DNA of 64,000 nucleotides. Origin: Ceratothoa steindachneri (lineage: Eukaryota > Arthropoda > Malacostraca > Isopoda > Cymothoidae). Where the stretch lies: positions 33,269,675 through 33,333,674 of the forward strand of contig OZ018327.1 of the NCBI GenBank assembly GCA_963969495.1. The letters run 5' to 3'. Numbering within the stretch: position 1 is the first letter of the stretch; the number at the start of each line of letters is the position of its first letter. Made by a program: the position numbers and the translations under genes. The notes under the pieces are model-generated. The model worked only from the letters and a program-made list of their open reading frames with translations, did no database searches and was not told the DNA's origin. This document shows positions 18,847-62,935 of the stretch, one piece after another.

Positions 18847-19155
18847 TTGTGTGCTTTGCACATTTGTATTTTGGATTTAATGCTAGATATTGGTGGAGGT
18901 GACCAAAGCGAAGTGAAAACGTCCAAATACAACGATCTTATCCAGCCCCCTTGGAAAACTAAAACGGCAGGCCTCAGTAAATGGACGACCGGCGTTCCCA
19001 CTTTACTCACTGTCGTTGCGAGGCTAAATAATACTAAAAGGGAATTTTTGATTGATACCGGTGCAAGTGTTGCAAAATTCCATCGTATCTTGTGTACTTT
19101 TGTTAAATGCGTCACTCAAGTGTTAATATTTCAATTGTTAATGGAAGCGGGATAA
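18847..19155 (+). pseudogene. Gypsy aspartic protease fragment
   Basis: REFLIDTGASVAKF near 19,041-19,082 is the retropepsin active-site loop (D-T-G-A). The rest of the protease is broken by the L2 insertion near 19,200. Its place after gag and before RT fits a Gypsy pol. Confidence 0.7.
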
Positions 19156-19224
19156 AAGTGCATTTAGATAGTTATCCCTAGTTTACGCCGTTCATTCAGA
19201 TAATAATAATAAACTTCTTATAAT

Positions 19225-19260
19225 GCGCTCTTCAAGGCCGGAGGCCTTCACATAGCACAC
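19225..19260 (-). other. 3' stem-loop of L2 LINE, copy A
   Basis: AAGGCC (19,234-19,239), loop GGA, GGCCTT (19,243-19,248), with weaker outer pairing TGCGCT/AGCACA. It lies just inside the (TTA)n tail. Copy B has a differently spelled but equally paired stem. In L2-type LINEs such as UnaL2, a 3' stem-loop is the recognition site of the RT. Confidence 0.75.
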
Positions 19261-19423
19261 GTTCGGCTGTGGGCTAAGATTAGTTTGGTGAGTAGGTAAT
19301 CTTGAACAGATGCGTTTTCAGGAGTCGCTTGAAAGTGGTAAGTGAGGCAGCAAATCTAATTTGGGCTGGAAGAGCATTCCAAAGCTTGGGGGCACAGACT
19401 GAGAAGGAGCGGTCGCCCATCGA

Positions 19424-20700
19424 TCAGAGGGACGAGTGAGGAGTATTCAGGAGAGGAGCATGAGATGACCGAAGGGCGTGGGGGGCAAGACGTTGGAAAA
19501 GGGCAGAGGGAAGGTAGGTTGGGGCCTTTTGGTGAAGGACCTTGAAAGTGAAGAGAAGAATCTTGAAATGAGAACGACATCTCACAGGTAACCAGTGCAG
19601 TTCCTGAAGCAGGGGCTTAGAAGGGGAGATGTGAGAGCGACCGAGGAGTAGTCGGGCAGCGTAGTTCTGGACTAGCTGAAGGGGGCGTAGAGAGGAAGAT
19701 GGTAGATTTACAAGAAGAGAGTTACAGTAATCAAGGCGGGAGGTAATAAAGGCGTGGACAGCAGTCTCAAGACTTTGGCGATCGTATTGCGAGCGAATGC
19801 GGGAGAAGTTACGGAGGAAACAAAGGGAATATTTACTAATATTGTGGATGTGGGGCTTGAAGGAGAGATGATCATCAAACACAACGCCAAAGATTTCTGA
19901 TAGAGTCAGAGAAAGCGACAGAGTTTCCACCCAGAGGGAGGGAGGGAAAGATGGATTTAACTTTGTATACTAGAGCGGGGGTACCAACCAGAAGAACTTC
20001 AGTTTTGGAGTGGTTAAGTTTGAGGAAGTTAGCCGATAGCCAGTCCGAGATAGAAGAAGAGGCAGAGAGGAAGGAAGTCACAGATTGAGTGGGCAATGGT
20101 CGAGGGGGAAGAGGAAATAAAGATTTAAGTGTCATCGGCCTAGAGGTGGAAGGACAGACAGAGATTACGTAGGAGGGAGCGAAGAGGGAATAAGTAGATA
20201 CGAAAGAGGAGATGGCCGAGGACAAAACCCTGAGGGACACCAAAGCGAATGGAAGCGGGGTCAGAGGAGACATCGTTAATCACTATAGATTGGGTGCGAG
20301 ACGAAAGGTAAGAGCGGAACCATTCGAGAGCAACGCCAGAAATGCCAAGGAAAGAGTGGAGGCGATCAAGCAAGACGGAGTGGTCAATAGTATCAAAGAC
20401 AGAGGAGAGGTCAAGTAGAATGAGAATGGAGGCACAACCCCGGTCAGCAGCTCTACGTAAGCAATCAGTCACATTGAGTAGAGCTTTTTTGGTAGTGTCC
20501 AGCTTTAAAACCTGATTGGCAAGTCTCATCGATATTATAGGAAACGCTGTGGGAATTAATGCGCGAAAAAACTACTCTCTCAAGGACCTTAGAGAGGAAG
20601 GGAAGTTGCGAGATCTAGCGATAGCTAGCTGGGTCGGAAGGGTTAAGCTTCGTCTTTTTAAGGATCGGACGGATTTAGGCACATTTCGAGGAAGAAGGGA
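19424..20700 (-). pseudogene. L2-group reverse transcriptase, broken
   Basis: Minus-strand pieces: LILLDLSSVFDTIDH (motif A), FGVPQGFVLGHLLF (motif B, where PQGSVLGPLLF is usual), LNHSKTEVLLVG near 20,000, then SFKPHIHNISK, TSRLDYCNSLLVNLPSSS, LVQNYAARLLLGR and LLQELHWLPVRCRSHFKILL. The pieces lie in at least three frames. The YADD region near 20,130 is not intact. Confidence 0.8.
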
Positions 20701-20802
20701 GAACACCAGTAGCAAGGGAGGTATTGAAAAGGGAGGGAGCGAGTCACAAAGGGAGCCAGATTTTTTTAGAGCGCGAGAGTAAGGCAGACAACTCAGAAGC
20801 GG

Positions 20803-21795
20803 TCACGGCAGGAAATACGTTGAGCGGCAGTAGGGTAGATCAGGGAGAATGTGAAAGGCCTCGTCAGGCATTCGTGGGAGGGAGGCACGAAGGTTGATGT
20901 CCTTATCAGCGAAGAATTTTGAGAGGATGGTGGGGCTGATGGGGGTGGGGAATTGGTGTGAGGAGGTAAGAGAAGAGAGCAGGCGGAAAACGGCACGGGG
21001 TTCATTTTTATTATCGGCTAGCAATTTACGCGAATGGGCTTCACGAGCAGATTTCAGTTTAGCCAAGTAGAGAGATGTCGCAAGACGGTAAGTGAGCGAA
21101 AGAGCAGTTGTATCTTGCCCACGGGAGCGAGCTTTACGAAGAGCTCTTTCATGGGCACGTAAAGACTGTCTCGAGCGTAGGAATTCCAGCGAGTACCATG
21201 GGGCTCGTTGACAGCAAGAGGACGAAGGTGGAATAATTAGGGAGTGGGCATTAAGGTAAGTTAGGAAGGATTGCTCCAAGAATGAGAGGATTTGGTCAGG
21301 GGAGGGGAGAGCGTCGGAAGGGGGTAAATTAGAGGCAACATCATTAAGGAGGAATAGGGTGTCAATGGAGGCTAGCCTTTGATAAGGTTTTAGGATGAGA
21401 GGAGGCCGAGAGGGCAAAAAAGTGTGTGTTGAGACGTTGAAGTTAATAAGGTAATGGTCAGAAAGAGCATCAGACAGGATAGAAGTGGTCAAGTGGCAAA
21501 TTTGACAGTCGCAAATTACAAAGTCTAAAATATTACCATGGCAGTGTGTTTGGGAAGAAACGTGTTGAGTAAGGGAGAAGAGGTCAAGGATTTCGAGGAA
21601 GGAAGGTAGATTAGGGTTAGTGACTGGGAGGTTGAAGTCCCCCATGATGAGAAGATGACTCGATGGGGAGAGACTAGCGAGAACGTTACTAAATTCGTCA
21701 AGAAAAAGATCAAGGGAGGACCTGGATGCGGGGGCGGTAGAACACAATGGTTGTTTTAGATGGAACTTAAATAGAGACAGAGCTAAGGGCCTCAA
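20803..21795 (-). pseudogene. L2-group endonuclease domain
   Basis: A 330-codon open frame. SHLLIMGDFNLPV (catalytic GDFN), ILDFVICD and SDALSDHYLINFN (catalytic SDH) mark the C-terminal half of an APE-type endonuclease. A basic linker (RQSLRAHERALRKARSRGQD) leads to the RT. The N-terminal third is missing, probably by 5' truncation. No stop occurs within the frame, suggesting moderate age. Cleavage of one DNA strand at the target primes reverse transcription in this family. Confidence 0.8.
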
Positions 21796-21879
21796 AAGAA
21801 AGAAGAGGGGAGGGGGAGGGAAATCAGAGAGAGAGGCAATTTTTGGCGCATTTTGTTCCTTTGGTGGATTGTGCTTATG

Positions 21880-23150
21880 TAATCCTCATTGCCAATCACA
21901 TAGGCTCATATCCAAAGTTTATCAATCCAGTGCATCCGTGGTATCATTAATTTGCAATGACCTTTTCCTCACCTAACTCTGTTATACATACAATCTAGAC
22001 TGGTAGCGCTCCACCAACTTTCGCCTTCCAAAACTACTTTCAATGGTGAAGTTACATGTTCCCTAAGCAACAAGTGAATCTTAATCGAAAGAAAGTGTGG
22101 TGCGTCAATCAAAGTAACCAGTGGCTTCACCCAATTCATATGGTGCAAAAGAAGATTCCAGGTTAGTAGAAAGTTCTTGGTTATTTCGCCCCCTGAACGC
22201 AATAACAAAACCGGACCGTTATCTTTTCCGAAGAATTCAGAGGATGGTTTTCATCTCCATGGAAAAAGTGTTTTCTCGCGACTAGATTTGGTTCGGGCAT
22301 ATAACCAGATTTCAATGTATCAAGAGGACATAGAAAAAAAACTGGTGTGTCAACTCCATTTGGGCTCTAAGAATTGTTGAGATTGCCGTTTGGTCTTAAA
22401 AATTCAATTTATTCCGTGGCTTAGAATTCGTTTTTGTCTATATCAACCATATTCTAATTTTCTCAGATAACAGAAATCTTTAAATAAAACATCTATACAG
22501 AGTCTGAAAAATACTGGTGGATAATAATTTGTGAATTCAATGGAAAAATGTGAGTTCATAAAGGAATAATTAATTTCGAGAGCCACCATGTCTCAGCTGC
22601 AGGAATATGTCATCCAGCGAGGAAGGACACGGAAATCAGCGAATTGCCCTTACCGATGGTTTACCTAGGACTACATGGATTTCTAGGTATGGTAGAAAAT
22701 TATAGGAGGAGGAAGCCCAATATTGCTGCAATTGCAGCTCCTATAAATGAACTCTTAAGACTTCAACCTAAACCTCGCTATCTTGTCTGGAATAATGCTG
22801 CATGGTAACCATTTAATGCTACTAAAGAATCCCTGGCGAACACAATCAAGTTACGTCACCAGTTTCGTAATGAATCACAGTACCAATTAGTGACAGACAG
22901 CTCTCAATTCGCAGCTGGTGCTGCTATTCATCAAACTGTTAATTGGTCTCCACAGCCAGTAGCGTTTTTCTCAAGCAAGTTGAGCAAAATAGGGCAAGCA
23001 TGCTCACGCTATGACAGGGAACTCCTGTGTGTGTCTCTTGCTGTGAACCCTTCCAAACAGATGATAAAGGGCGACATGTTGCTTATGTACGGAACACGTG
23101 GTATCTTCTTTTTCCTCGCTGTTACGTCCAAAGACCGACGAACAACATTG
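21880..23150 (+). pseudogene. Gypsy RT and RNase H, copy B
   Basis: VFSRLDLVRAYNQI near 22,270-22,320 is RT motif A with its catalytic Asp. The expected YVDD motif near 22,440 reads YINH, so RT is inactive. RNase H follows: TDSSQFAAGAAIHQ, PQPVAFFSSKLSK, YDRELLCVSLAV (22,890-23,050). Frameshifts separate the pieces. Counterpart of 9466-8390 in copy A. Confidence 0.8.
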
Positions 23151-23289
23151 TAATTTGACGGTAATATTAAAATATATTAACGACATAATGACAATACGTG
23201 GTGAAGATAATGTTAGTTCAGTGCAAATAGACTCGTTTGACAGCGCAGAGCAAGATGAACAAGTGAAATCGTTTCAACCCAAAATCAAA

Positions 23290-23756
23290 ATCGCTTTCCT
23301 TTCCCAGGAATACTCAACTTTGGTGTGAAGTAACATCTAAATACCCACGATTGTTTGTTGCCATAGCCTGCAGGATGTAAATTTTGAAGCAAATAATCAC
23401 ATCGTAGGATTAAAGCATCAATTCACTTGTTTAAAGAGAGGTACTTCTGGCCTAATATGGACAGGAACATACGTTTCTGGACACGAGAATGCCTCTAAAG
23501 TCAATCAGCTAAAGTTAATCGTCACACCAAGTCACAAACCTTGACCATTAGTTTTTCTATATCAAGATTCGAAACAACACACATTGACATAATTGGTCCG
23601 CTACCATCGTGTACACTGCCGGGAAAATCCTACCTGTTATAATGCATAGACAGAGCTACAAGGTGACTATGATCCATTACCGATTCCAGACATCAGTCCT
23701 GCAACGGTTGCTTAAGATACTTAGACGGTTGAATTCATAGATTCGTTGTTCCATTA
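23290..23756 (+). pseudogene. Gypsy integrase fragment, copy B
   Basis: A broken plus-strand reading includes the zinc-binding-side pieces (HQFTCLKRG, FWPNMDR-like) and THIDIIGPLPS near 23,580-23,610, the start of the integrase core with its first catalytic Asp. The C-terminal chromatin-binding part seen in copy A (HTVSIDRLK) is absent, removed at or near the second L2 insertion. Confidence 0.65.
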
Positions 23757-25215
23757 ATAATAATAATAATAATAGGTATTTATAATGCGCCCTTCAGGGC
23801 TGTTAGCCCTCCCAGAGCGCAGGTTGTGTCGCGAGTGTAGAGAAAGTTTACATGGAAGAGAAGGCAATTCTGAAGAAAGGAGACTCGAGGAAACGTTTAA
23901 AAGTAGCAAGGGAGAGAGGGGATCGGACTTCGGCAGGAAGAGCATTCCAGAGTCTAGGAGCACAAACTGAGAAGGAACGGTCATCCATGGAGCAGATGAC
24001 AGAGCGAGGAGTGATCAGGAGGGGATCGCGGTTAGACCGGAGTACCCGAGGAGTTTGGCGACGGGAGATGGCAGACGAGAGATAAGGTCGAACCTCGAGG
24101 TTTAGGGCCTTGTAGGTGATGAGCAGAATTTTATAGTGGGTACGGAAGCGAATAGATAACCAGTGTAGTTCCTGTAACAGAGGCATCGAAGGAGAGAACC
24201 GGAAGCGGCGAAGGAGGAGCCGGGCAACATACTTTTGAACTAGTTGTAGGGGGAGAAGTGACGAAGAAGGGAGATTCACTCGATGTTAATTGCAGTAGTC
24301 TAAGCGTGAGGTGATGAAGGCATGAATAGAAGTCTCAAGTCTTCCTCGATCAAAATGAGATCGAACACCTGATAAGTTGTGGAGGAAACCGAGGGAAGAC
24401 TTACAGATTCGATGGATGGGCAGTTTAAACGAGAGTTGCTGATGTTATCAGAGAAGGCAACATTGGTTTTACCAAGGCTAATGGATAGCTAGAGAGCTTT
24501 AAATTTCTCCACCATCGAAGAGGTACCAACAAGGAGAACTTCAGTTTTATCGTGTTTAAGCATGAGAAAGTTGGCAGACAGCCATTCGTTTATGGATGTG
24601 TAGGCTGAAAGGATCTTGGTAATTAATTGAGAGAAGGACATATGGGATGAGGAAAGGTATATCTGAGTGTCATTAGCATAGAGGTAGAAGGACAGGCCCA
24701 AATCACAAAGAAGGGAGCCAAGAGGAAGTAAGTGGAAGCGAAAGAGGAGGGGACCAAGGACTGAGCACCCCAAAATGAGTGGGCGTGGGTTCGGAGGATA
24801 GGTTATCGAGAGCGACCGACTGAATGCGGGAGGAGAGGTATGAGCGGAACCAATCAATTGCAGTGCCCGAGAAACCAAGGAAAGTGTGAAGACGATCAAG
24901 GAGGACAGTGTAGTCGATGGTGTCGAAAGCAGAGGAGAGGTCTAGGAGGACTAGAATGGACGTACAACCACAACCCCTATCGGCTGATCTACGTAAACCG
25001 TCTGAAACATTAAGAGTAGCGGTTTTAGCAGAGTGCTTCGCTTTGAACCCGGATTTGCACGTTTCATCGATATCGCAGTTAAAAATATGGTCATTAAGGC
25101 GAGAGAAAACCATTATCTCGAGCATCTTAGAGTGGAATTGAAGCTGTGAGATAGGACGATAGCTAGATGGTTCAGAGGGGTTAAGGTGTGGTTTTGTAAG
25201 GATAGGACGATATGA
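23757..25215 (-). mobile_element. L2-group LINE, copy B, inserted in Gypsy copy B
   Basis: 5'-truncated L2 copy with a (TTA)n tail at 23,755-23,775. Minus-strand pieces: NCDIDETCKSGFK, LVLLDLSSAFDTIDY (motif A), LYANDTQIYLSSS (motif C, YADD changed to YAND), then NLPSSSLLPLQLVQKY, LLQELHWLSIRF, SFSVCAPRLWNALP. RT is inactive. Related to copy A but clearly diverged, so they are separate insertions. Confidence 0.85.
23785..23820 (-). other. 3' stem-loop of L2 LINE, copy B
   Basis: AGGGCT (23,796-23,801), loop GTT, AGCCCT (23,805-23,810), with outer GCGC (23,787-23,790) and GCGC (23,817-23,820). Two base pairs of the inner stem differ from copy A on both sides (A-T to G-C, C-G to T-A), so pairing is kept. 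Confidence 0.8.
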
Positions 25216-25388
25216 GGCATGCTTGAAGAGAGAGATGACAATGATGACAGTAACGTAGAATCCGTCCCAGATAGTCAGAGAAATGGTAGAAAAGCAGACG
25301 TTTCTACTCCTTCCAGTAGATCCTTCATATGGGTATTTTTAAATATTTATTTTTGTAGGCCAAATTTAGTGGCTAAAAATCCAGTTGC

Positions 25389-25499
<111 letters not shown>

Positions 25500-25654
25500 A
25501 GAGGTAAAAGGCCATGTTGTATGTAGTTACTATTGAAGTCCACAGGGTCTTCGAGGTGAGAAAAATATTTTAAGGGAAAACTAAGCGCTACAAGAAACAT
25601 AAAATTGGAAGGCTCAGATTGTCTGAGGATTCCACTGGGCCTCGTAGGTGTTAA

Positions 25655-26150
25655 GGTTTTCAATTTCTGCTGTTGTCACAGAGTGGGGCACAGGCACCCT
25701 CCCTTGCGGAATGGCCGGAGTGAGCGGAAACTTTGATCCGTTCGTGCACCCTAAACTGATCTACGCTGCTCTCTCCATCACACAGTCACAGAGAGTTCTC
25801 GTAAGTTTTCACTTAGGCCCAGTCATAAGATCTTGCACTGCATTCCCCGTTGCCACACCTTATCAAACGCTTTTGATACATTCCGACAGACAATGTCCAC
25901 GAAACTTCTTTTCCGTTTTGCTTGGGCTAGCTTTTCCGCAAGACACCAGTTTTCGGTTGAGGATCTCCTCGAAGAGCTTCCCGCCAAATTCTAGAAGTGA
26001 ATTTGGCCGGTAACTCTCCTTCAACGTTGGGTCCTTTCCATGCTTAGGCAAGAAAATCATCTTAGCCATTTTATAAGCATCTGGAAAGTATCCCGTGTTC
26101 AGAAAGGCGTTATATATCCTTCTCATTCATTCGATGACATTGGCTGGTGC
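25655..26150 (-). pseudogene. Jockey/I-group LINE RT fragment
   Basis: Minus-strand frame 26,126-25,863 reads IYNAFLNTGYFPDAYKMAKM, LPKHGKDPTL and SYRPNSLLEFGGKLFEEIL. It matches 46.0-45.8 kb (IYNASLNTGYFPD, YRPISLLEIIGKV). A broken continuation with an IPQG-like motif B reaches about 25,680. Fragment only. Confidence 0.75.
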
Positions 26151-26249
26151 CTTTTAAAAATTTAGCTTTGTAACTCCGATCTAGTTCTCTGGTAAAGAAG
26201 GCAATGGAAAATGAATGTTTGAAAACATGCTTCTTTTAACGACAGTCAA

Positions 26250-28809
26250 CTCAGGGAGTAACAAGGAGTAACAAGGATAGTAAGTACCCTAGGAGACCTT
26301 ACGGTCCATTCAAAGAGGGTACCTTTGGACTAGCAATCGAGCGGGCACATGGCTGCTCAATTGTTTTGCGTCCCTAAACGGCCACTTTTCAAGACTTTGT
26401 CTAGTCTTGACTTGAACTGGTCAACAGATTCACTGTTGACAACTTCCACTGGAAGTGCGTTCCACTTACCGCAGATACTGTAGGTGAAAAAGTTTCCACA
26501 CAGATTGCGGTTGTAACGCTTCAGTTCAAGTTTGAAGTCGTGATTGCGCGTTCTGTTCTCACTCAGTGTGAAAATATCCCGGTAGTCAACATTGTCGAAC
26601 CCTCGAAGTATTTTGAAGACTTCGATGAGCTGACCACGCAGTCTACGGGTTTCCAGCGAGAACAGATCTAACTCCCTTAGTCTATCCTCATAACTTTTAT
26701 GTCGGATAGAGGGAATCAGCTTGGTTGCCCTGGCTTGTACGCGTTCCAATCTAGCGATGTCCTTTCGCAATGAAGGACTCCAAAATTGTACGGCATACTC
26801 CAGATGCGGTCGGACAAGTGAGTTGTACAGGCACAGTACAATCTCCTGGTTCCGATAACCAAACTTGCGCTTAATATAGCCTAGCATCCTTTGGGCCTTT
26901 TTCTCCGCCTCAATGCACTGTTTCGAGAACTTGAGGTCACTAGTGATTGTTACACCCAAGTCCTTCTTAGTGTCGGTAGATTCAATAGCAGTGCCCTTAA
27001 GGATATACTGAGATTGGGGGTTTCTGTGGCCGATATGCATCACTTTGCATTTCCCCACGTTAAAAGGCATTTGTCACGTGTCCGACCACTCCCCAATCTT
27101 CCCAAGATCTTCCTGCAGGCGGGCAGTATTTCCATCCTTTGCAACGTTCATACCAAGCTTGGTATCGTCGGCAAATTTGGAAATCTTGGCAACCATGTCA
27201 CCGTCCATGTCGTTGACGTAGATGATGAATAGTAGTGGTCCCAGGACAGAACCTTGAGGCACCCCGCTAGTAACGGGCACCCACTCAGAAGACTGTCCAT
27301 TCACCACCACCCGTTGCCGTCTGCCACTTAGCCAGTTCTCGATCCAGCCGGCTACCTTTCCGTCTATGCCAAGCGCTCGCACTTTCCGGAGAAGGCGGCG
27401 GTGTGGTACCTTATCAAAGGCTTTCTGAAAGTCTAGGTAGACCACATCCACCGCCTTGTCCCGATCGTGCTCACTGAAAACGAAGTGTAAGAATTCTACA
27501 AGGTTCGTCAGGCATGACCGTTGCCTTCGGAAGCCGTGCTGGGAACTCCTCAGTAGCAGGTTTGACTCTAAATACGACGTCACTTTGTCCACCATGATGC
27601 TTTCCATGAGTTTACCGACTATCGAAGTCAGACTGATAGGTCGGTAGTTCGACGGTTGGTTACGATCTCCTTTCTTGAAGATTGGAGTCACCTCCGCCTC
27701 ACGCCAGTCTCTAGGAACGCATTTGGTCCGGATTGACATGTTAAAGATAGCGCACAGATGTCGTGATACTTCATCGCACACTTCCTTCAACACCTTGGAT
27801 AGAAACCCGTCCGGTCCAGGGGACTTATTCGTCTTTAGGTCAGCGATCTTTTTCTTTATTTCTCCTTCAGTGAAGTCCATTGCCTCCAGCTTTTCCCCTG
27901 AGTAGGAATCCGTCGGCTGGGGAATGGGACCACACTCTTCAGTAAACACTGAAGAGAAGTAGTCGTTGAGGAGGTTAGTAATTTCTGCATCTGAATGCTT
28001 TAATGTCCCCTCCTCATTCCTCAAAGGGCCAATCGTTCGAGGGATTGGTTTACGGCTGTTCACATATCCAAAAAAACTCCTTGGGATTCTCTTTACAGAG
28101 TCTCGCCACTCGGAGTTCCTCAGACCGCTTAGCCGCCCTTATGCTGGACTTCACTCTCCTGGCTAGCCTCCGGTATTCGTCAAAGTCACCCGAGATCTTC
28201 GATTGCCGGTACGCATTTCTCCTCTCCCTAAGCAGTTGCCCGATTTCTCGATTAAACCACTTTGGTTGAACAGAGGACCGACGGGGGCATTTCAGAGGGA
28301 TGAAACGCGATTGAAGACTCATGAATGTGGTTTTGAAACTGTTCCAAGAGTCTTCAACAGCCTCGCACTCTTCTAGCCTCGCGTCAGTCAGTCCCGCACG
28401 TAGACCTGCAAAGTCTGCTCTTCTCAAATCGAGTTTCCTTGATTTACTAGTTGCAGGCTCTGCCTTGGGGACTTTGACTACAAATCTAATTAGTCGGTGG
28501 TCACTGCCACCGACCTCTTCGCCAACAGAGAGGTCCTCAACGATGTCATCCTCAGAGGTGAAAACCAAGTCGAGGATATTGTCTCCTCTCGTTGGCTCTC
28601 TCACCCATTGAGTCAGGAACTCGTTGTTCGTGAACTCCAGGAGTAGTGCGTTCTCGCCACAGGGTTCTCTGGTTTCCCAGTCAACTTGTGTGTTGAAATC
28701 ACCCATGACGATACACGCTCTGTCTTCGACAAGTTCTCCTAGTAGCTGGTACAGATCTCTGTCCTTTTCAACGAGTTGGGCAGGAAGTCTATAAAGCACC
28801 AGGGTCCTG
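26250..28809 (-). mobile_element. CR1-group LINE, copy B, nearly full ORF2
   Basis: Minus-strand CR1 with the C-terminal half of the endonuclease, complete RT and 3' UTR. The 3' end has the repeated CCTTGTTACT unit near 26,255-26,278 and shares CCGTAAGGTCTCCTAGGGTA with copy A. The coding region is broken only twice. It abuts a Penelope-like fragment at 28,810 and a LINE fragment at 26,150. Confidence 0.9.
26357..28799 (-). pseudogene. CR1-group endonuclease-reverse transcriptase
   Basis: The endonuclease part (28,799-28,050) has ACIVMGDFNTQVDW, NILDLVFTSE and GSDHRLIRF, so the GDFN and SDH catalytic motifs are present; the N-terminal half is absent. The RT (28,063-27,074) has DWREAEVTPIFKKGD, NYRPISLTSIVGK, VYLDFQKAFDKVPH (A), GVPQGSVLGPLLF (B) and KFADDTKLG (C). 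The thumb and C-terminal domain run 27,070-26,357. Two lesions are visible: a one-base frameshift in a run of seven T/A at about 28,065, between KEFF and the expected GYVNSRKP, and TGA for a Trp codon at 27,071-27,073 (copy A has SDTWQIPF here). All RT active-site residues are intact, so this is a young copy. The outermost start is not determinable. Confidence 0.88.
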
Positions 28810-29715
28810 TATTGCCTGCATGAATGCCGAGATGTCGGGAGTACTGTTTCCGGGCTGAAGTTGCACGTTAATTGCCGGTTTCTTCATTTGCATAATGACG
28901 GCTTCGGCCATCCGCAATCTTCTGTGGGTTTGGAGTCTCAGGATGATGGAGGTGTCCTTATTCAGTTTTTCACGGGTTAGGGTAGTGCCATGAGGGTGGG
29001 CGCCATCTTAAAGGTGAAGTGTCAGTCGCCTTAGCAGGGTTGTGGAGGTTACGCCAATGTACTTTGAATTACGATGTTCGCAGTCACCGACTTTGCACGA
29101 ATATTCGTACACGACGTTAGTCTCCTGGAGTTCGATCGTCGGAGGGAAACAGCTGTTCTTCATGATGCAAATACTGGTTTTCTTGGTCTTGTAGTATATA
29201 ATTAGATTTATATCCGTATTTGGGTCGGTTAGGGCCATGTTACGATGGAGAATGAGTTTGAGAGCCTTTTCGTCTTCACGATAGCCGGTGTTCATATTGT
29301 CCTTGTAATAAAGGTCGATATTATTCTTCTTCGGAGTGGACCTGACGTTAGGACCAGCAGTCAAGTTCATTTTCTCTTTCATGGTAGCGTCGATGGATTG
29401 TTGTGGGTTGTCGTTGTTAACGAGAACTCGGGAAACCCTCTTAAGTTGGAAATCAACAGCTGTCCACGAGGATGAATGAGAAATTGCCATGTTAACTAAA
29501 GCATTGGTGACTGATCTCTTGTAACTTTCAGGAAACTCAGAAGAACCGTTAAAGCAGAAGCCTATGTTCGTGGCATTAACGTATACTTGGGTCATAAATT
29601 TGGACTCCTGGGCACTTTTGAGGATATCAATGAAGGGAAGGGATCCTTCATTTTCCGTTTCGTGGGTGAAATTCAGACACGAGTTGTTCTTGAATCTTTC
29701 AACTAGGCCCTTCAC
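28810..29715 (-). pseudogene. Penelope-like element fragment, RT thumb plus GIY-YIG
   Basis: The 235-codon frame (29,715-29,008) reads NFTHETENEGSLPFIDIL, TQVYVNATNIGFCFNGSSE and YKRSVTNALVNMAISH, typical of the end of Penelope-like RT. It is followed by VYEYSCKVGDCEHRNSKYIG, the start of a GIY-YIG endonuclease with conserved Cys residues. Broken continuation of the GIY-YIG part reaches about 28,810, where the CR1 copy begins. The RT palm would lie upstream and is missing. Penelope-like enzymes combine RT and GIY-YIG nicking activity. Confidence 0.85.
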
Positions 29716-29724
29716 TTTATTTCT

Positions 29725-30560
29725 AAATAATCTTTATTTTTAAATACAAACAACAACGTAAGATGAAATAAGACACTCAACGACACTTAAAAAAATGAGA
29801 ACTTTCAACTCTTATAACGGGTTCACACATAGAACCATAATAACATTTGAAGGAACAGAATCCGAATCCATAAGTGCTCTACAAAGAAGCACTGTTCTCG
29901 TATAGTATTAGCACTCTTTTTGGAAAAGTTCTTTTTTGGGGGGTGGGGGTCCCCAAAGCTGGTGATATCTGTGTACGCAATGCCATACTACAGTTCTTTA
30001 ATGCAAACCTACAAAATAATAACGATCGCCTAAAAGATAAAGCCAGACCCCTTAAAGAAATAAGAAAAACTAATGCAGGGTTACTTAGGAGTGGGTGTTC
30101 TAAAACTAAGAACCATCGCTTTCCTGAATTTCAGAGATCAACCATCAGAAGTAATGAATTAATTTTATAATAGTAAATATCTCAACGCTAAAGAGTGAAC
30201 AGCCTAAAATTGGAAAGCGCCTCAAGATGAAGACCCAAAATCTATCAAGAGAGATACATCAGAAGACTTTCCAGGTTCCCGCCGAATAAAGAATAGTGAA
30301 TCCAGCTTCAACATTTCTTTATCCTTAAAGAAATTGCTGATCACATTTAGGCAGCCTACAATAAAGAAAGAAGAGCTATCTCTACCCTTTAGATTCAGTG
30401 ACTATCGTACAAGGCACTCCCACCAAGCCGAACCAAGAAACCTATCACTCTACTGAGGAGTAGTAAAAAAACTCGGTGGCAAATCACCGTTGGTAACCAA
30501 ACCACTCCAACTGGGCTAAACGGCTCATCCATAAATCGGGATAATGATGGCGAGACAGTG
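29725..30560 (+). repeat. LTR-like repeat plus Gypsy-type leader
   Basis: 29,740-30,235 is the inverted match of the repeat at 6645-5434. 30,275-30,530 resembles the Gypsy leader at 17,850-18,100 (shared GCCGAATAAAGAA, CTACAAT-AAGAAAGAAGAG, GAACCAAGAAACCTA). A solo or truncated 5' LTR with leader is the simplest reading. It contains the string TTTTTTGGGGGGTGGGGG near 29,930. Confidence 0.6.
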
Positions 30561-43653: not shown

Positions 43654-44190
43654 CTAGGCCATCTGGAGGGTCTCGAATTTGGACAACATCTTGTCGTTGC
43701 TAAGCGACGGGATTACCTCCCTTAGGCGGTCGAAAGCCTCGTTCAGGCTGTTCATGCGCTGCCGTTCGCGGGCATTGGCGGCCAAACGCCGCCTGCGCAG
43801 GGCATCTTTGGGCAAGGATTTCGAAGGACGTTTTCGAACCCTCCCGGACGACGGGTGGCTCCTGCGGGAAGACGGTGGAAGGCTTTCCAGGAGGGAGTGG
43901 CTGTTGCCATGGAATCCACGGTCCCATGGAGATGGCGGGGTTTCTTTATTATCGCTTGCTCTCGTAGGAGTCGCGTCTTCCGAATGAGTGAAGGAGTTGA
44001 ATGGAGGATATAGAGGTTTAAAGGTAGGATCCTCCTTCAGGGTTAGCTTCTGAGGAAGAGGGGTTCCTCGGGGTGACAGACGGGTAAACGGCACGACCCC
44101 AACTTGAATCTTGACACTGGATTTCACCGTGGCTTTGGGAGGTGACTTGCCACACCGCAGATACTGCCATGAGTACCAGACTCCTTTGAA
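43654..44190 (-). CDS. Atonal-group bHLH transcription factor, last exon (5' partial)
   Basis: The bHLH domain is unmistakable: [14 protein letters not shown] (basic region with NARER), [17 protein letters not shown] (helix 1), loop [15 protein letters not shown] (helix 2). The LAANARER and LSK-ETLQMA signatures are those of the Atonal group (ato/cato/amos, Atoh). The frame upstream stays open to a strong acceptor, TTTTCACCTGTCAG ending at 44,191, so the exon probably starts at 44,190 with [12 protein letters not shown]; 5' exons were not identified. The N-terminal region is Pro/Ser-rich. The frame stops at TAG (43,654-43,656) where the family has Gln. The next codons spell SYIMALAEFLH and then TAG at 43,618-43,620, matching the normal end of helix 2. 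Such factors bind E-boxes with Daughterless-type partners to start sensory or neural fate. It could be a mutated, recoded or mis-sequenced gene. Confidence 0.78.
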
Positions 44191-44191
44191 C

Positions 44192-44688
44192 TGACAGGTG
44201 AAAAGTGAAACTGAAAGTGATGTAAGAAGTAGGAAAATGTGTAGTAGGTATATAAAGATAAAAAGAGTTTTAGATTTGCCCTCGTGTAGAGGGCTCCTCC
44301 CAGGTTTTTCTTGTCTTGTCTCTTATTATTCTTCCCTTTATTTGTTTTTATTATTATTTCTATATATATATATATATATTTATAAATATATAATATATAT
44401 ATATATATATATTTTTTCTTTCTTTTTTTTTATCTAACATTAAGTAAATAAATAAATATATTTGTTCTTTCCTCCATCGTGGCTTTCAAGCTTTTCAAGT
44501 TTCTTACTTGCTATATATATATATCTTCTTATTTTATATTGCTATCTTACTAGGTAATATATCTTATGCCGGGGTTTAGGTTTTAATTCTTGATTGTTTA
44601 AATAGGTTTTATATTGGGGGCTACGCCTCTTTTACTCTCCGTTGTAATTTCTTCATTCTTTGGGCTTTGGTGATCTTACTTCGTGTGT
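44192..44688. other. Upstream flank or intron of bHLH gene, AT-rich
   Basis: T-rich, with an imperfect TA tract at about 44,361-44,411. No coding frame supported. Confidence 0.4.
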
Positions 44689-51340: not shown

Positions 51341-54150
51341 TATTTAAACTGATGCTCATTTTAAGGGAAGTTTCGAGATCTTTGCGAAATAGGTTTCTAG
51401 TTCTTTTTTACGTACGTTTTGACCTCTTTCTAAAGTTTGTTTCAAGGATTTTCTGAAATTTTTTGTGACAGCTTTTTAAAAATACGTTTCGAGCTTTTCT
51501 TAAATAGGTTTCTAGCTGTTTCAGAAATGAGTATTGGGCTCGTTCTAAAGGACGTTCCGAGCTCTTTCCGAACTACATTTTAAGCTTTATTTAAATTATG
51601 TTTCAAGCTCTTTCTGTAATACTTTTTGAAGTGTTTCTAAAATGCATGAAGTAATTCTGAAGTACATTTCGGCCCTTTTCTAAATAGCAGTTCAAAGTCG
51701 CTCTAAAATACGTTTCGAACTCTTTCTGAAATATAGTTGATTCTCTTTCTGAAATACTTTTCAAGCTCTTTTTAAAATACATTTAGAGCTCTTTCTGAAA
51801 TACGTTTCTGGTTCTTTCTGGAATACGCTTCGAGCTTTTCATGAAATCTGTTTCTCTCTCTTTCTAAAATATGTTTCAAATAGTTGCTGAAAAATGTTTT
51901 GAGCCCTTTCTGAAATACGTTTCTAGCTCTGTCTGAAATGCATTTCAAGCTCTTTCTGAACTCAAATTGGAGCTAATTTTACTCTCTGGCATACGCTTCA
52001 TCTTCGTTTTTCAAAAGGCTTCAAGCTCTATCTGAAAAGGTTTCGAGATCTATCTGAAATATGTTTCGATTTCTTTCTGAAATACGTTTTAAGCTCTTTT
52101 TTAATTAACTTCGAAGTAATTCTGAAATAAGTTTCGAGTTTATCCTGAAATAAGTTTCAAGCTCTTTCTGAAACTCGTTTTATTCCCTTTCTGACATATG
52201 TCCTGAGCTCTTTCTGAAATGCGTTTGGATTTCTTTCTTAAGTACGTTTCGTTCTCTTTCTGACGTACGTTTGAAGCTCTTTCTGAAATACGTTGTAAGC
52301 TCTTTGTGTTATACGTTTTGATCTCTTTCACAATAAGTTTCGACCTCTGTCTGAAGTAGCTTTCGAACCCTTTCTTAAATACGTTTAGGCTCTTTCTGAA
52401 CTACGTTTCGAACTCTTTCTAAAATAGTTTTTGCTCTCTTTCTGAAATGTATTTGCTGAAATACATATCAAACTCTTTCTGAAATAACTTTTAGCTCTTT
52501 CTGGAATAAGTTTCAAATTCTACCTGTAAAACCGATTCGAGTTCTTACCAAAATAATTTTTACCTCTTTAGGAAATATGTTTCAAGCTCCCTCTGAATTA
52601 CAATTCGAGTTCCATCTGAATTCTGTTTAGAACTCTTTCATAAATCCGTTTGAGGCTCTTAAAGAAGTACACTTCGGGCTCTTTCGGAAGTACGTTTTGA
52701 GCTCTTTCTGAATTTATTTTCAAGCCTTTCCTAAAATATGTTTCGATCTATGTCTGAAATATATATCAAAACTTTCTGAAATTCGTTTTTGAGCTTTTTA
52801 TGGAATACATTTCTAGCTCTTTCTAAATTTTAATTCGAGCTCTTTCTGAAGCACGTTTCGAGCTATTTGTGAAAGTCGTTTCCATCTTTTTCTGAATTTA
52901 TTTTCAAGCCTTTCCTAAAATATGTTTCGATCTATGTCTGAAATATATATCAAAACTTTCTGAAATCCGTTTTTGAGCTTTTCATGGAATACATTTCTAG
53001 CTCTTTCTAAATTTCAATTCGAGCACGTTTCGAGCTATTTGTGAAAGTCGTTTCCATCTTTTTCGGAAATACGCTACAAACAATTTCTGAATACTTTTCG
53101 TTCGATCACTTTCTTTAGTGCTTTTCAAGATTATTTAGAATTACGTTTCGTGTTCATCTGAAATACATTTGAGCTCTTTAGAAATTCGTTTTGAGCTCAT
53201 TCTTAAATATGTTTCGAGGTTTTTCTTAAATATGTTTCGACCTCTTCCTGAAATACGTTTAAACTCATTCTGAAATGCGTCTTGAGCTTTCTTATATATC
53301 TTTCGAACCTCTTTGAAATAAGATTCTAGCTCTTTCTAAGGTAAGTTTCGACCTCTATTTTAAATAGGTATAGAGCTCTTTCTGAAATACTTTACAAGCT
53401 TTTTCTGAAATACATTTCGAGCTCTTTCTGACATAAGTTTCGAGCGTATCTGAAATACTTTTTGAGCTCTCTCCGTTATAGATATTCAGGTTTTCTGAAA
53501 TAGTTTTGAAGCTCTTTATGACATAGGTTTTGAGCTCTTCTGAAGGACAATTCGAGCGCTTTCTTAAATACGTCTCAAGCTTTTTATGAAATACGTTTCG
53601 AGCTTTTTCTGAATTACGTTTCGAGTTCATTTCTGAAAAGTTTTTCGAGCTTTTTCTGAAATACGTTTCATGCATTTTTTATAGATATTCAGGTTTTTCT
53701 GAAATAGTTTTCAAGCTCTTTCTGAAATACATTTCAAGCACTTTCGGACATAGTCTTTGAGCTCTTTCTGCAGGACAATTCGAGCCCTTGCTAACATAAG
53801 TTTCAGCTCTTTTTCCATATACGGTTTGAGATGTTTCTGAAATACGTTTCGAGCTGATTCTAAATTAAGTTTGAGCTCTTTTTCAAATTCGTTTCGAGCT
53901 CGTTCTGAAAATATTTTGACCTCTTCCTGAAATGCATTTAGAGCTTTCTTAAATACCTTCCGAACCCTGTTTCAAATACGTTCCTAACTCATTATGAAAT
54001 ACCTTTTGAGCTCTTTCCTAAATATGCTTCTAGCTATTTTTGGAATAGGTTTCGAGCTCTTTCTGAAATACACTTTGCTCTCTTTTTACAATCGTTTAAG
54101 CTATTTCTGAGATACTTTTCGAGCTCTTTCTAAACTGCGTTTCGAGCCAC
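51341..54150 (-). repeat. Large degenerate minisatellite, unit about 24 bp
   Basis: About 2.8 kb, roughly 110 units, plus-strand core GAGCTCTTTCTGAAATACGT followed by TTC. Units differ by substitutions and 1-2 base indels. Because 24 is a multiple of 3, fragments stay open on the minus strand and repeat an eight-residue pattern (SERAxxVxQK). A segment is duplicated: 52,705-52,850 resembles 52,885-53,025. Confidence 0.92.
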
Positions 54151-57120: not shown

Positions 57121-57387
57121 TACACTACCGAGCAAAATAAGAGAACGATTTCCTTTATTAAAATATTTTCAAAAATATGATGAGAAGGTAAATGGAATTT
57201 CCATGGTAAACACAGGCAAACATTTAATATATTTATGGAGATTTCAGATGATACAATCGTATATTCAAAAAATTATCATAAATAAACTAACAATAAAATA
57301 TTGACATGTGCAAAATAAGAGAACGATTTTTCAGGAATATTCTAGAAGTTTCTTGAAATCATTTGGTAACATTTTGCTCGGAGGGTA
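57121..57387. mobile_element. Tc1/mariner-type MITE, 267 bp
   Basis: Left end TACACTACCGAGCAAAAT (57,121) and right end ATTTTGCTCGGAGGGTA (to 57,387) are inverted repeats bounded by TA. A second direct copy of GCAAAATAAGAGAACGATTT lies near 57,311, so the left subterminal segment is partly repeated inside. It contains no coding sequence. Confidence 0.75.
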
Positions 57388-57420
57388 AGAAGCTATTATT
57401 AATGGTATATGTTTACAGTT

Positions 57421-58335
57421 CTCTCTATGTTTCATCATCTTACTTAGATCTGTTCTATAGGCTACCTAAGATACATAAGACTGGATGCCCTCTTCGTCCC
57501 ATTCTTGCTTCTTACACTCTTCCTTTCTATAAAATTGCTAAGTTTTGATTTCCTCTGTTAACCCCTTTTACTTCCAATCTATATACCATTAATATTAGCT
57601 TTGATTTTGCTTCTGAAATCGCAAAGTTTGAATCGTCAAGTCGTTTTTTTCTTTTCTAGCTTTGATATCGCGCCCTCATTTACAAATATTCCCCTTCAGG
57701 CAACTATAGAGATTATTTTGACTAAAGCCTTTCCGGATAGAAATGCTCTATTTAATGGTTTCAGTTGTTCACAATTTTCGCATTTATTGCATCTATCTGT
57801 CAAGGACAACTATTTCACTTTCAATGGCGTGGTTTATCATCAAATTGAAGGTGTTGGGATGGGAAGCCCACTAGGTCCGATTTTCACAAATATTTTCATG
57901 TGTAATTTTGAAGATAGATTCTTTCGTGATTGCCCTTCTCAATTTCGTCCCTTATTCTACAAAAGATACGTTGACGATACCTTTGCGTTTTGTTTTTTTT
58001 GTCTCTTGTTCAAAAAGGTTTTTGGATTTTATAAACAATTTACACCCAATTCTCTATTTTTCCATTTCAATTGTTTAATTTTGTAATATTACGTTTACTT
58101 TGTATGTCTTTAATTGATAGTATCTCTTTACAAATATTTTGCTGTTCTTTGCCTCACTATTTTGTTTGTTCATTAACGTAACGTTCATTATAAATTTTTA
58201 ACGTCGTTTTTGTGATTTTCTCTGATCTGTGGTTTTTACTTTGAACATATGCTGTTATTTATGTTTTTAGGCTTAGATTACTCATATAGAATTTGTTTTT
58301 AGCTCCTGAAGATGGGTTTTGTAATAACCCGAAAC
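57421..58335 (+). pseudogene. Penelope-like element RT remnant
   Basis: Frames read YRLPKIHKTGCPLRPILASY (57,460-57,520), SFDIAPSFTNIPLQATIEII (motif A region), DNYFTFNGVVYHQIEGVGMG then SPLGPIFTNIFM (motif B) and LFYKRYVDDTFAF (motif C, Asp pair kept). All are characteristic of Penelope-like RT. Frameshifts separate the first piece from the second, and the frame ends at 58,086. No GIY-YIG domain is recognised downstream, so the copy is truncated or belongs to a GIY-YIG-lacking group. Confidence 0.88.
58302..58335 (+). ncRNA. Hammerhead-like motif at Penelope 3' side
   Basis: CTGAAGA (58,306-58,312), then GGGTT (58,314-58,318) pairing with AACCC (58,326-58,330), then GAAAC (58,331-58,335). 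CUGANGA, stem II and GAAA form the hammerhead core. An extra T at 58,313 breaks the usual first stem II pair, and a cleavage-site stem was not located. Hammerhead motifs are documented in Penelope-like elements. Candidate only. Confidence 0.35.
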
Positions 58336-58447: not shown

Positions 58448-59250
58448 CCCATGTACATTGGTCCGGAAATGCTTGGTTCCGACTTATAGACTATTATAAA
58501 CACCTGCTATCAGCATTCCTTTATCTCCCACAGGTGGCGTCTTTCAGCACAGGATTCCGTTGAACTCGATCAAGTAGTTGTCTGGATAGTGGTGCATCGT
58601 CAGTGGACATGGACTTAAACCAAGAGAGAGCAGATATGCACTTCGTGTATGGTTTGGCGAACGGTAATGTTGTAGAAGGTGGTCGTCTGCACCGGGAAAC
58701 GTTCCCAAACCGAAGATGCCCCAGTAGGAAAACATTTTAGGAGCCCATCTGGCGAGTGCCTTCTTCGGCATAAGCACCGTACTCACTGCAGCCTACAACA
58801 AGGCTGTATAAAAAAAACAAATAACAAGGATAAAAAGATTATAGGCTAAACACAATAACAAAAAAGAAAACAAAGCAAAAAGATAACAAGAAGGAAGCGG
58901 GATCCAGCATCTGGGCTCCAGCGTAGGAGCATGCGACCCACAACAAACAGTCAAATAAAGTAGAGAAGGCCAGCCTCCTTCTAAAAGTCGTATAGTCCGC
59001 AAGTCTGTTTGCACTAACTAGTCCGGAGTACAAGGGACAAACGGTAGTGACCCGGCTCGTTCCGGCACCGGGACAGGTAACGTGCGCGAAGGTGACCCAG
59101 AATGGCACATTCAACAATAATGTGCCGAACAGTCTTGGGGACAACGCAGTCGTCGTAATAAGAGGCTGGCGAGCGCTCCATTAAATGGCGGTGCGCCCCG
59201 CTAGTGTGTCTAATTCGAACCTCGTGGTGGCGACAGAGGACGACCAAGGT
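58445..59250 (-). pseudogene. LINE C-terminal zinc-binding region plus 3' UTR
   Basis: The minus-strand frame 59,247-59,014 reads HHEVRIRHTSGAHRHLMERS, YDDCVVPKTVRHIIVECAIL and RARYLSRCR. This resembles the C-terminal RIGHT-type and C-x-VP-x-TV-x-H-x-x-x-EC segment common at the end of Jockey/I-group ORF2. Below 59,014 the sequence is probably 3' UTR. Confidence 0.65.
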
Positions 59251-59922
59251 CTACAACGCCTGAGGGAGAAGAGGAGATAGCGGATATTGTGAATGATACT
59301 CCGAAATCAGTACACGACAGTTGGCAAGGTAAGTGGGTATTCCTCATTCGAGTGTCTGGAGAGTGTTACGAGAACAACAGTTGTACTCATATTGTAGTAG
59401 AATGCCACTTTTTGATCACCCCACACCGGTCACCACTTTTGTCGTGGTATACCTTGTGGAACGTGAAATACTTCTTTGATGAAGTCGGCTTTGTTCTAAG
59501 AGTGCTAATTTGTGTTGTTTTTAAAGAAGAGCCGTTTCAAACACGTAAGGATATAGAGAAACGCACAAGAATTCCCCAAATAAACTTATATTTTAAATTT
59601 AACAAGTTACTACACAAAAACAAAACATGAACCACTGAGATATTACGAATATTAAAATACACAATAATTACTTCAATTAGCTTGACCCTCTAAAATTGGC
59701 TAAATTCGATACGCACTACAATATACATGAAATAGGCTTATTGACTCTACTGGAGTTTAAATACCTCAGGAATGTTATTGGCTCCAAGATGCGTGCCGAC
59801 CGGCCAGATGGAGGTGGTCGAGATCACGAGGTATTTGGGCGAGTGTAGCACATGGGGGTCCACACGGTATTCAATGGGGGAGAGGGGTCTTCAAGGACGA
59901 GAACAATCACGGTGCTTTAGGC
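59251..59922. other. No gene recognised
   Basis: A 113-codon plus-strand frame at 59,289-59,630 shows no recognisable domain. Confidence 0.35.
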
Positions 59923-60620
59923 GAGAGTAAGTCAAACTTGGTACTTAGAATAAGTTAACTTAGGGTTCGGTGTAACCAGGGTAACGAGCTCGAAGGGGGC
60001 TTTTCTCCTTCGTTACTTAATTCCTCATGGGCGAGGACTGTACTCGGGGGGAGGGGCGGTCTTCTTTAAGGGAGAGGATCGAAGAGGGGGGGTTTCTCTG
60101 ATGAGAATAAGTTGAACTTAAACAAGTTAACTTAAAGGTCGGTTTAGTACCCAGGAACTAGCTCGAGGATGAGCTTCTTCTTAGTTCCAGTCTTCCTCAA
60201 GGGCGAGGATAACGGAGGGGGGTTTCTATGACGAGAATAAGTTGAACTTGGTTCCTCAACCAAGTTAACTAATGAGTTTGGTGTGGCCACCGGGTAACGG
60301 GCTCGAGGGAGAGCCTTTTTCCTCTTCTTTTCTTAATTCCTCAAAAACGAGGAATTTCCCTGGCTTTTACGATGCACCAGGATAGGAGGAGTCTCTCTGA
60401 CGAGAGTAAGTTGAACTTGAACAAGTTAACTTAACGTTTGGTTTGATAACTATGGATTAGCTCGAGGATGAGCTGCTTCTTAGCCTCTTAGGTAGCCCTG
60501 CCTCTCTTGCAGGGGACTTCGTAGTCTGGCGACCCAAGTATTCTACCTGTCCAGTCTCCGTAGCCCGGCCTTAATCCGGGGACTTCGTAGCCTGGAGACT
60601 GACGTATTCTACCTCGATTT
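59923..60620 (+). repeat. Tandem array of multi-hairpin units
   Basis: Four imperfect units (starts near 59,923, 60,103, 60,233, 60,405), each with GAGARTAAGTTGAACTT, an AACTT/AAGTT hairpin, an inner GCTC/GAGC hairpin in a larger stem, and a TCCTC/GAGGA hairpin. The larger stem is GTAACGA/TCGTTAC in unit 1 and GGAACTA/TAGTTCC in unit 2. The last part (60,493-60,601) is a further repeat pair with CCCTG/CAGGG and CCCGG/CCGGG hairpins, the second enclosed by CAGTCTCC/GGAGACTG. No coding frame. Function unknown. Confidence 0.7.
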
Positions 60621-60984
60621 TCCTAAGTGTTTCTTATTTATACCTCGTCACCCCACTGGGGGAGGTGTAGGAGGTGGGGGGAGCTTGTGGACGGGCCCAG
60701 GAAGGTTCTTATTCCAATGGTTTTTATCAGCAAGTCTTAGATCGGCTCCCGTTAGCCTTCGAGCTTGAGAGAAACGTGTCTCCAATTTCTTATTTGAAGT
60801 TAAATTCAATATGCTTTCGTAAGGAATATCTTGCAGTTTGCAACCTTTAGGCTTTTCATAGCGACGAGTGGCAAGGCTCTGTGGTTACGAGTTTGACTGC
60901 GCGGTGCCGGGGACTGATGTTTTTGCGGTAACCGCCTCGTGTTTCCACTGAGAGAGAACGGGCGGGTGAAGATTTCCCTACACA
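60621..60984. other. No gene recognised
   Basis: Sequence between the hairpin array and the transposase remnant; it may belong to the same transposon. Confidence 0.35.
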
Positions 60985-61370
60985 TATCATCTGCAACGTG
61001 TACAGGCGTTGTCGCCCTGCAAGAGTTACGTTCTGTCAATGGTTCGTGAAGCAGTGCGTTAGAAATCCAAACTTTCCCAGCTTCGGTTTCTTCACTGATG
61101 GAGCACAGTTCACACGAGGTGGAATAGTCAACTTCCACAATCAGCATTGTATCATCACGCCACCAACAACGCTTCTCACTCAACATCTGGGACAGTGTTG
61201 TTGGTAATACGTTATTTGAGAACCATGTACTTCCGAACAGGCCCACGAGTGAGACATACGAACGCTTTATGGAAGACAACTGGCCTGATTTCTTGGACGA
61301 CGTTCCACTTATCACTCGTCGTCAAAGGCATTTCATGCACAAAGTTCGTAACTCTAACTACTTGGTCCCT
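60985..61370 (+). pseudogene. IS630/Tc1-mariner-superfamily DDE transposase remnant
   Basis: Plus-strand pieces: VTFCQWFVKQCVRNPNFPSF, then FFTDGAQFTRGGIVNFHNQH (first catalytic Asp in FTDGAQFT), NVWDSVVGN-like, LFENHVLPNRPTSETYERFM, DNWPDFLDDVPLITRRQRHF and MHK, where MHDGAPAH is expected. It is thus cut just before the second catalytic Asp. The order matches a transposase family common in insects. Frameshifts present; inactive. Confidence 0.75.
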
Positions 61371-62935
61371 TTTAACGAACCCCTACCTAAAGGGTATTGA
61401 TACACGCAGGCCCATTTATTTAAGGTTAGTGGGGATGGCTACTGCCGTCTTGGTTATCCTTAAAGATTCTCACTCTTCCATTTCTTACTCTTTATTCGCT
61501 TCTTCCTTTATCTACCTGTTCATACACTCTAAGTGCTCGTTATGAACTCAATTTTTCTTATGGTCTTATTTTATCACTGTGTGAATGTACCATGAATTGC
61601 AAAACCACCTCCCTTTCTTTTGGTAAGGAAATAAGAAGCCAAGAAGAATTTTCCAGTCCAAGTTTATACTTTATGGCAATTGTCGTCGAGGGATGGTTTT
61701 TTAAAGCCATCCAAAACGACCGACTCTCAATATGCCATATTTGGCAAATTTTGCCACTTCCTGAAAAAGATTATGAAAGCATAATCCAATTTTCCTAAAT
61801 CAAAAATGAGATTGTCCAAATATTATTTTTTGCCTAAACTTGTGTGAAAGAATGGAATAAACTGTTCCCACCATCTGGTAACCTTGCCATCAACCCTGCC
61901 GCCACCCTTCATCAGTAGTCGGATGCCCCGAAGCAGACCAGAAGACAAGATGACGTTTCTGGGCTCGCGTCCTTTCCGCCTATGCCATTTCCTGCCAGAC
62001 ATAATGAAAGATGGAGAGTTCTGCCACACATATAAATCTATTTCCATAAAAAGAATTCACACAATCACCACACAAAAATCTTAATTCATATGTACCCCTC
62101 TACTGTTTTTCTTGACTCTTATAACCTGCCTCTCTTTAAAAGGCAGGTCTGCCATCACCTGACGAGACCAATCCATTAACACTGTTTTCCTATCTTTTCT
62201 TCTTCTATTTTTGTTTTGTTTTCGTTTTATCAGAGTCTGAGCTTGAATTGGCTAACTCTTCTTCATCTCACTCTCCCCAATGCTACCCCCCCAAACTAAC
62301 CCCGTTCTCTATTACCCCATCTCCCCCAAGGTCTTTAACAGAGTTTGGCACTAGTATGAATCACTCGATTAGAGCTGAAATATGGCACTTATCAGAAGGG
62401 ACTATTTTTAAAAGATGTGGGAGATTAGATAAGGGACCCTTGCACCTTGGGGCAACACACAACCCCCGAGTATTTGGAGAACGCAGCCTCTTGGGTCAAA
62501 ACACTTGTTCGGGGAGTAGTCAGAAGAAGCATTAATATTTAGAAGGCCTGGCATCCGGCATTATCTCACGTACATAAAGATACACGCACACGCCACGACG
62601 TACAGTCTACAAACAATTACAAAAGCAATAAACAGGATATTCTTTATCATTTTTATCACTTGATAAATAGAATACCATTTCATCGAAAGCATTAGTCTCT
62701 CTTCAGCAGTACGACACAAAACCTGTGAGCCGCCCCACTCCCGTAAAGGTAATATCACCCATGGGTAGATCATAAAGGATCAGAAGTAATTAAAGAAAGA
62801 ACAAAGCTCAGATAGAGACGACGGCAAAACCGAGCCTTAAGTTGAGCGATGCAAATATTATAATACGGAATTGTATAAAATGTTTTCACTTATAAATAAC
62901 ATTTATTCAAGAAGAACAAACATAATATCCAGTGG
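61371..62935. other. Intergenic, no gene recognised
   Basis: Short frames on both strands, none with a recognisable domain. Confidence 0.35.

Follow-up and report, generated by a model that had tools for sequence, protein, structure and literature searches.

A tandemly duplicated stem-loop array in a high-copy LTR retrotransposon of Ceratothoa steindachneri and its predicted place in the RNA leader

In the window (the whole stretch of 64,000 nucleotides of Ceratothoa steindachneri contig OZ018327.1 that was analysed), imperfect tandem repeats near a dead transposase keep the same hairpins while their letters change. This raises the question of which element owns the repeats and whether the conserved pairing reflects a folded nucleic acid, as the earlier note proposed, or only the way in which the repeats arose.

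The element that carries the repeats

The hairpin repeats occupy the middle of a dispersed element, a solo LTR of 1,590 bp at window positions 59,393-60,982 on the minus strand, with its sense 5' end at 60,982 and its sense 3' end at 59,393. The LTR has the ends TGTAG/CTACA, homology to independent copies stops at these positions, and comparison of the flanks revealed a target site duplication, CATAT, at 59,388-59,392 and 60,983-60,987 (no strand assigned). Joining the flanks across one CATAT copy restored the frame that the LTR interrupts, with the reading ...VWRVLREQQLYSYHLQRVQAL.... The left piece of this split plus-strand transposase frame (59,343-59,392) was assigned to its family by eye and the right piece (60,988-61,400) is frameshifted; neither had a match in Pfam, and a search of the PDB with one piece was also negative. 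The dead transposase is the insertion target of the LTR and not the owner of the repeats.

A search with positions 59,920-60,620 across the genome of the window (529 contigs, 3.93 Gb) resulted in at least 42 matches (40 scored of 7,322 candidates). Nine of these (L001-L009) represent a single insertion that was multiplied by a segmental amplification, and another 21 (L010-L030) are other insertions with 90-93% identity to the query. Most copies begin with TGTAG and finish with CTACA at about 59,393 and 60,982. Exact 5-bp target duplications were found by script in 12 of 22 copies and by eye in L017; L021 matches at four of five positions, and in the remaining copies one end is missing or unmatched. 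A 29-base pattern from the plus-strand right end of the LTR occurred 1,720 times genome-wide at up to two mismatches, with no occurrence of the reversed control.

Among 100 listed places of the 1,720, two same-strand pairs of the pattern lay 2.4 and 3.5 kb apart. In L061 two LTRs with 91.6% identity (1,548-base alignment) flank an interior of 1,993 bp. This interior recurs in L062, at 92% identity across an alignment of 1,253 bases, together with a second LTR that is partial. L057, one of 30 pattern loci, when extended as L063 displayed LTR sequence on either side of about 2.5 kb, with both LTRs interrupted or cut. These three two-LTR relatives fix the nature of the element, a high-copy LTR retrotransposon, as well as its strand. 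Across 51 distinct sites (the window, the 21 insertions and 29 of the 30 pattern loci, L040 being the site of L028) the L061-type interior was found in L057 only, and the other copies therefore look solo, with the limit that the stretches of the 30 pattern loci often end inside the LTR on one side and some interiors could be missed. A DNA transposon with short inverted ends, of a type we take to be Ginger-like, was suggested by the TGTAG/CTACA ends together with the 5-bp duplications and was dropped because of the two-LTR elements with a shared interior. Frames of the L061-type interior had no match in Pfam and no homologue at E 0.001 in two protein searches, so that assignment to a superfamily is not proven. 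One interior frame is gag-like by eye, and no domain was matched for a Ty3/Gypsy gag-pol order with reverse transcriptase and integrase. Viral contigs contained no exact match to a 22-base array pattern.

The sense strand was assigned before the strand-folding test and corresponds to the window minus strand, as a primer binding site (PBS)-like sequence, a purine tract and a TATA box all agree. The predicted TATA box, TATAAATA (60,635-60,642, minus), is found at the corresponding alignment position in 42 of the 51 distinct sites. The PBS-like sequence lies inside the LTR end (59,426-59,435, minus) and reads TGGTGACCGG on the sense strand of the window and TGGTGTCAGG in many other copies. In L061, TGGTGTCAGG, which we take to resemble a tRNA 3' end, stands a few bases beyond one LTR end, and in L062 a GAAGGGAGG-type purine tract precedes the other LTR. 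The window LTR has neither AATAAA nor ATTAAA in sense orientation, and an alignment of 17 copies contained no shared signal of this type, leaving the 3' end of R unplaced. At the plus-strand left end (the sense 3' end; 59,393-59,445) the LTR end and the PBS-like sequence form a module of about 49 bp that is absent from L061, single in the window and double in L025 and L026, a pattern that would fit a shift of the LTR border through duplication of the module.

Several other features were observed in the surroundings. The window lies within the tandem segmental amplification (G000:C11:32.62-33.33 Mb), whose nine copies of the one LTR insertion are spaced 83-96 kb apart and are 94-95% identical over about 3.7 kb. 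A bHLH exon (43,657-44,322, minus; Pfam HLH) was whole at about 98% identity in four of eight sister stretches, cut by the stretch end in two and not seen in two. Of at least 120 relatives of this exon, the named ones were nearly all from arthropods, including crustaceans. Positions 1-12,600 and 14,800-30,200 share many inverted matches of 75-87% identity (e.g., 1-1,313 with 26,261-27,567), which point to either a large inverted duplication that has decayed or repeated elements arranged in opposite order. Reverse transcriptase fragments, presumably Penelope-like, occur at 57,363-58,086 (57,601-58,083 has a match to Pfam RVT_1, E 5e-6, that does not reach the curated cut-off), and a degenerate 23-bp tandem repeat forms a long array at 51,702-54,147.

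Array anatomy and paired change between units

The array, a predicted R/U5 leader, spans 59,920-60,614 (minus). On re-checking the sequence, every stem named in the earlier note was present where it had been described. The four imperfect units also described there do recur, with starts at 59,920, 60,100, 60,230 and 60,399 (spacing 180, 130 and 169 bp); they are not four equal units but, in plus-strand order, A1-B1-A2-B2, followed by a two-copy C block (C1-C2). The two AB pairs have 69-71% identity and the C block copies lie 66 bp apart.

The stem set of a unit consists of H5, H1, H2, H3 (outer and inner stems) and H4, all given here for the minus strand. Unit A1 (59,920-60,093) contains H1 (59,928-59,962), H2 (59,968-59,979), H3 (59,981-60,016), H4 (60,022-60,037) and a second H4 (60,063-60,078). 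Unit B1 (60,094-60,223) contains H5 (60,094-60,107), H1 (60,108-60,134), H2 (60,140-60,153), H3 (60,154-60,188) and H4 (60,194-60,209). The same five stems follow in unit A2 (60,224-60,392): H5 (60,224-60,237), H1 (60,238-60,272), H2 (60,279-60,292), H3 with a degraded outer stem (60,294-60,332) and H4 (60,335-60,356). Unit B2 (60,393-60,487) contains H5 (60,393-60,406), H1 (60,407-60,433), H2 (60,439-60,452) and H3 (60,453-60,487), and H4 was not found in it. C1 (60,491-60,547) consists of a CCCTG/CAGGG hairpin (60,496-60,514) and its neighbours, and C2 (60,552-60,613) of a CCCGG/CCGGG hairpin (60,564-60,580) inside CAGTCTCC/GGAGACTG.

H1 has 15 pairs in A units and 11 in B units, the B form being shortened around the loop. 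In a subfamily comprising L031, L060, L061 and L062 the H1 hairpin of unit B1 is shorter by 14-16 bases (a B1 stretch of 67-69 compared to 83 bases). H5 is an additional covarying stem that reads TTCTC/GAGAA in B1 and A2 and CTCTC/GAGAG in B2. The proposal that all units keep one set of stems was borne out for most of the pairing; the exceptions, besides the missing H4, are pairs 2 and 5 of the outer H3, lost from A2 (majority bases), and the H1 and H2 of the window's A1, which are broken; of 39 other copies, 24 have a perfect H1 and 26 a perfect H2. Identity to the window was 87.9% for the array, 86.5% for U5 and 82.9% for U3, indicating that the array is only slightly more conserved than U5.

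Majority bases from 39 copies were compared at 45 pair positions, 33 of which were invariant and 12 variable. At six positions (H2-5, H3o-2, H3o-3, H3o-6, H3i-1 and C-4) both bases were swapped with Watson-Crick pairing kept, and H5-1 is a seventh double swap outside the 45-position count. Both sides of H2-1 vary via wobbles, and five other positions vary on one side. At the first pair of the inner H3 a G-T pair stands intermediate between A-T and G-C. The only pairs failing on both strands were positions 2 and 5 of the A2 outer H3; every other unit-level departure reads as G-U on one strand and as A-C on its complement, neither strand being clearly preferred, and wobble asymmetry, used as a strand test at this level, favoured neither.

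In 202 unit-by-unit comparisons 164 were unchanged, 16 were double changes that remained paired and two were double changes that broke the pair, with single changes accounting for nine wobbles on the sense strand, seven wobbles on the plus strand and four broken pairs (three more comparisons were without a reference). Both sides varied together (Fisher P = 8e-5, for stems picked by eye). A test free of hand-picking started from sense-strand folds of each single unit in the 39 copies; the predicted stems were carried over to the sister units through alignments that used sequence alone. In this test 578 of 798 double-changed cells were paired (72%), compared to 32-49% in slid registers; single-changed cells had no excess pairing (34% compared to 31-44%). 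A covariation count was limited to H2 and the inner H3, due to MAFFT misaligning the 5' arm of the A2 outer H3 between A and B units, and covered 36 sequences (nine of 40 copies by four units). It reached 0.224 compared to 0.143 in shuffles, with none of 500 shuffles as high, and 87.7% of cells were paired compared to 82.2%. Double-change pairs (2 compared to 3.1) and pair types (9 compared to 10.3) were not above the shuffles.

The stems are thus kept by compensatory change between paralogous units. The check that had been proposed, covariation across genomic copies, was negative when copies of one unit were compared (13 sequences; term +3.55; 4 of 178 predicted pairs doubly changed). Such a result is expected if copies decay neutrally after insertion, and it neither supports nor refutes a conserved fold. 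The reading of paired change as a sign of a folded nucleic acid therefore holds between units and, as described below, in strand-biased folding.

Folding by strand and the alternatives

Folding of the array exceeded shuffled expectation. In the seven better preserved copies, mean z values on the sense and plus strands were -2.8/-1.8 for A1, -2.9/-1.5 for B1, -3.9/-2.5 for A2, -2.6/-1.4 for B2 and -2.3/-0.9 for C, with the minus-strand means spanning -2.3 to -3.9 and those of the plus strand -0.9 to -2.5. Control segments from six copies gave +0.6/+0.4 and +0.1/-0.7 for two U3 segments and +0.9/-0.2 for one U5 segment; the two U3 segments, located upstream of the TATA box, folded near zero and not beyond chance. 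A segment at the PBS-like LTR end folded too (-3.1/-1.2, six copies), and structure therefore does not mark the array alone. Among 197 random windows of 122 bases, mean z was -0.4 (minus) and -0.3 (plus) and the strand difference averaged -0.07 (sd 1.07). None of 20,000 random quintets was as extreme as the five array segments; because these segments are paralogous and their values are means over copies, this is not a clean probability. In the decayed copy of the window itself the signal was weak, with best z values of -3.9 (minus) and -2.2 (plus) and a background 5th percentile of -3.3 (414 values). The strand z values indicate that the array folds better on the predicted RNA strand.

Pairing of this kind might also have a mutational origin, in which the units were duplicated and their imperfect palindromes perfected by arm-to-arm template switching or by gene conversion between units, producing a fold without function. 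We consider this unlikely, while noting that it fits the absence of covariation across genomic copies and the small number of independent double changes (about seven positions), which represent few events since A and B units share most swaps. However, such an origin does not predict the stronger folding of the sense strand or an unstructured U3 beside a structured leader, and the G-T intermediate at the first inner H3 pair looks stepwise.

It is distinctly improbable that the array acts as double-stranded DNA, its palindromes serving as protein-binding sites of an insulator or enhancer in the LTR. Palindromes do exist on both strands, and transcription is often influenced by tandem arrays close to LTR promoters. 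Benachenhou et al. (2013; PMC3601003) mention tandem repeats in the U3 of retroviruses. The array, however, lies downstream of the TATA box rather than upstream, the two arms of its stems change in concert, which a fixed recognition sequence would not do, and one strand folds more strongly.

A self-cleaving ribozyme would accord with an LTR that contains structured RNA and occurs in many solo copies, features also described for retrozymes (PMC4918200), but has very little probability here, as the whole window had no Rfam match at the gathering score and five Rfam matches up to E 5 within 58,500-62,000 were all far below their gathering scores, none of them a ribozyme. Finally, the suggestion in the earlier note that these are subterminal repeats of a DDE transposon, prompted by a dead transposase within a few hundred bases, can be set aside with near certainty because the LTR in which the repeats sit is a distinct element with ends and a target duplication of its own, interrupts the transposase frame and is dispersed genome-wide without the transposase.

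A predicted structured leader

We consider the array to be, with fair probability, a duplicated structured stem-loop leader of LTR retrotransposon RNA that is kept by selection on the folded RNA. As it begins about 30 nt downstream of a TATA box kept in most copies, it is predicted to be the R/U5 leader. With transcription from the TATA box (60,642), the RNA would start at the edge of the C block (60,605-60,615, minus, judged from a TATA spacing of about 30 nt), and the array would form approximately the first 700 nt of the RNA, between the cap and the primer binding site. In the proposed sequence of events a stem-loop block was duplicated in tandem and the copies kept pairing while their letters changed, from which we infer selection on the RNA. 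The role of the stems would be a cis-acting leader function, for example genome packaging or dimerisation, or translation of a downstream frame.

The hairpin loops allow a narrower version of this leader function. The commonest H2 loops on the sense strand were GUCA in A1 (33 of 40), ACCA in B1 (31), GCCA in A2 (34) and AUCA in B2 (39), and the commonest H5 loop was GUCA. The loops of H2 and H5 could thus be described as one R-Y-C-A tetraloop class on changing stems and, judged from their letters, might resemble a protein-binding hairpin; transitions alone could also explain the class. Tandem duplication would then have supplied more protein-binding hairpins with tetraloops of one kind (GUCA, GCCA, ACCA, AUCA). 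That the leader is an amplified array of one protein-binding hairpin class with interchangeable stems, a packaging or translation signal grown by tandem duplication in R, is a tentative idea to which we give a low probability.

Structured leaders between the cap and the primer binding site serve packaging, dimerisation, translation and strand transfer, and retroviral 5' leaders carry packaging and dimerisation stem-loops. The array resembles these leaders in its predicted place between the RNA start and the primer binding site and in its several stem-loops, and differs in its tandem A-B-A-B duplication. To our knowledge, few cis-acting RNA signals have been mapped in animal LTR retrotransposons.

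Benachenhou et al. (2013; PMC3601003) relate stem-loops to conservation within long R regions, give a Train_length of 174-695 for Gypsy LTR models and call AATAAA a common LTR motif. The retroviral and animal Ty3/Gypsy R-region LTRs treated there share TG..CA ends, a TATA box and stem-loops with the window LTR, whereas the latter is about 1.6 kb long with a tandemly duplicated structured block of about 700 bp, and AATAAA was not found in it. A literature search found no paper on such an LTR array, which does not show that none exists; retrozymes were the closest example found of an LTR that carries structured RNA. Retrozymes (PMC4918200) also combine RNA structure in the LTR with target duplications, a primer binding site, a polypurine tract (the latter two putative in the present element) and many solo LTRs. 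The present element differs in having no hammerhead match, an LTR of about 1.6 kb compared to about 330 bp, target duplications of 5 bp compared to 4 bp, and an animal host.

The paralogous leader units, present in well over a thousand genomic copies, differ in letters and retain most of their pairing. They amount to an evolutionary experiment of their own, and their structure is therefore directly testable by probing. The array also offers a model for the expansion of a structured leader by duplication.
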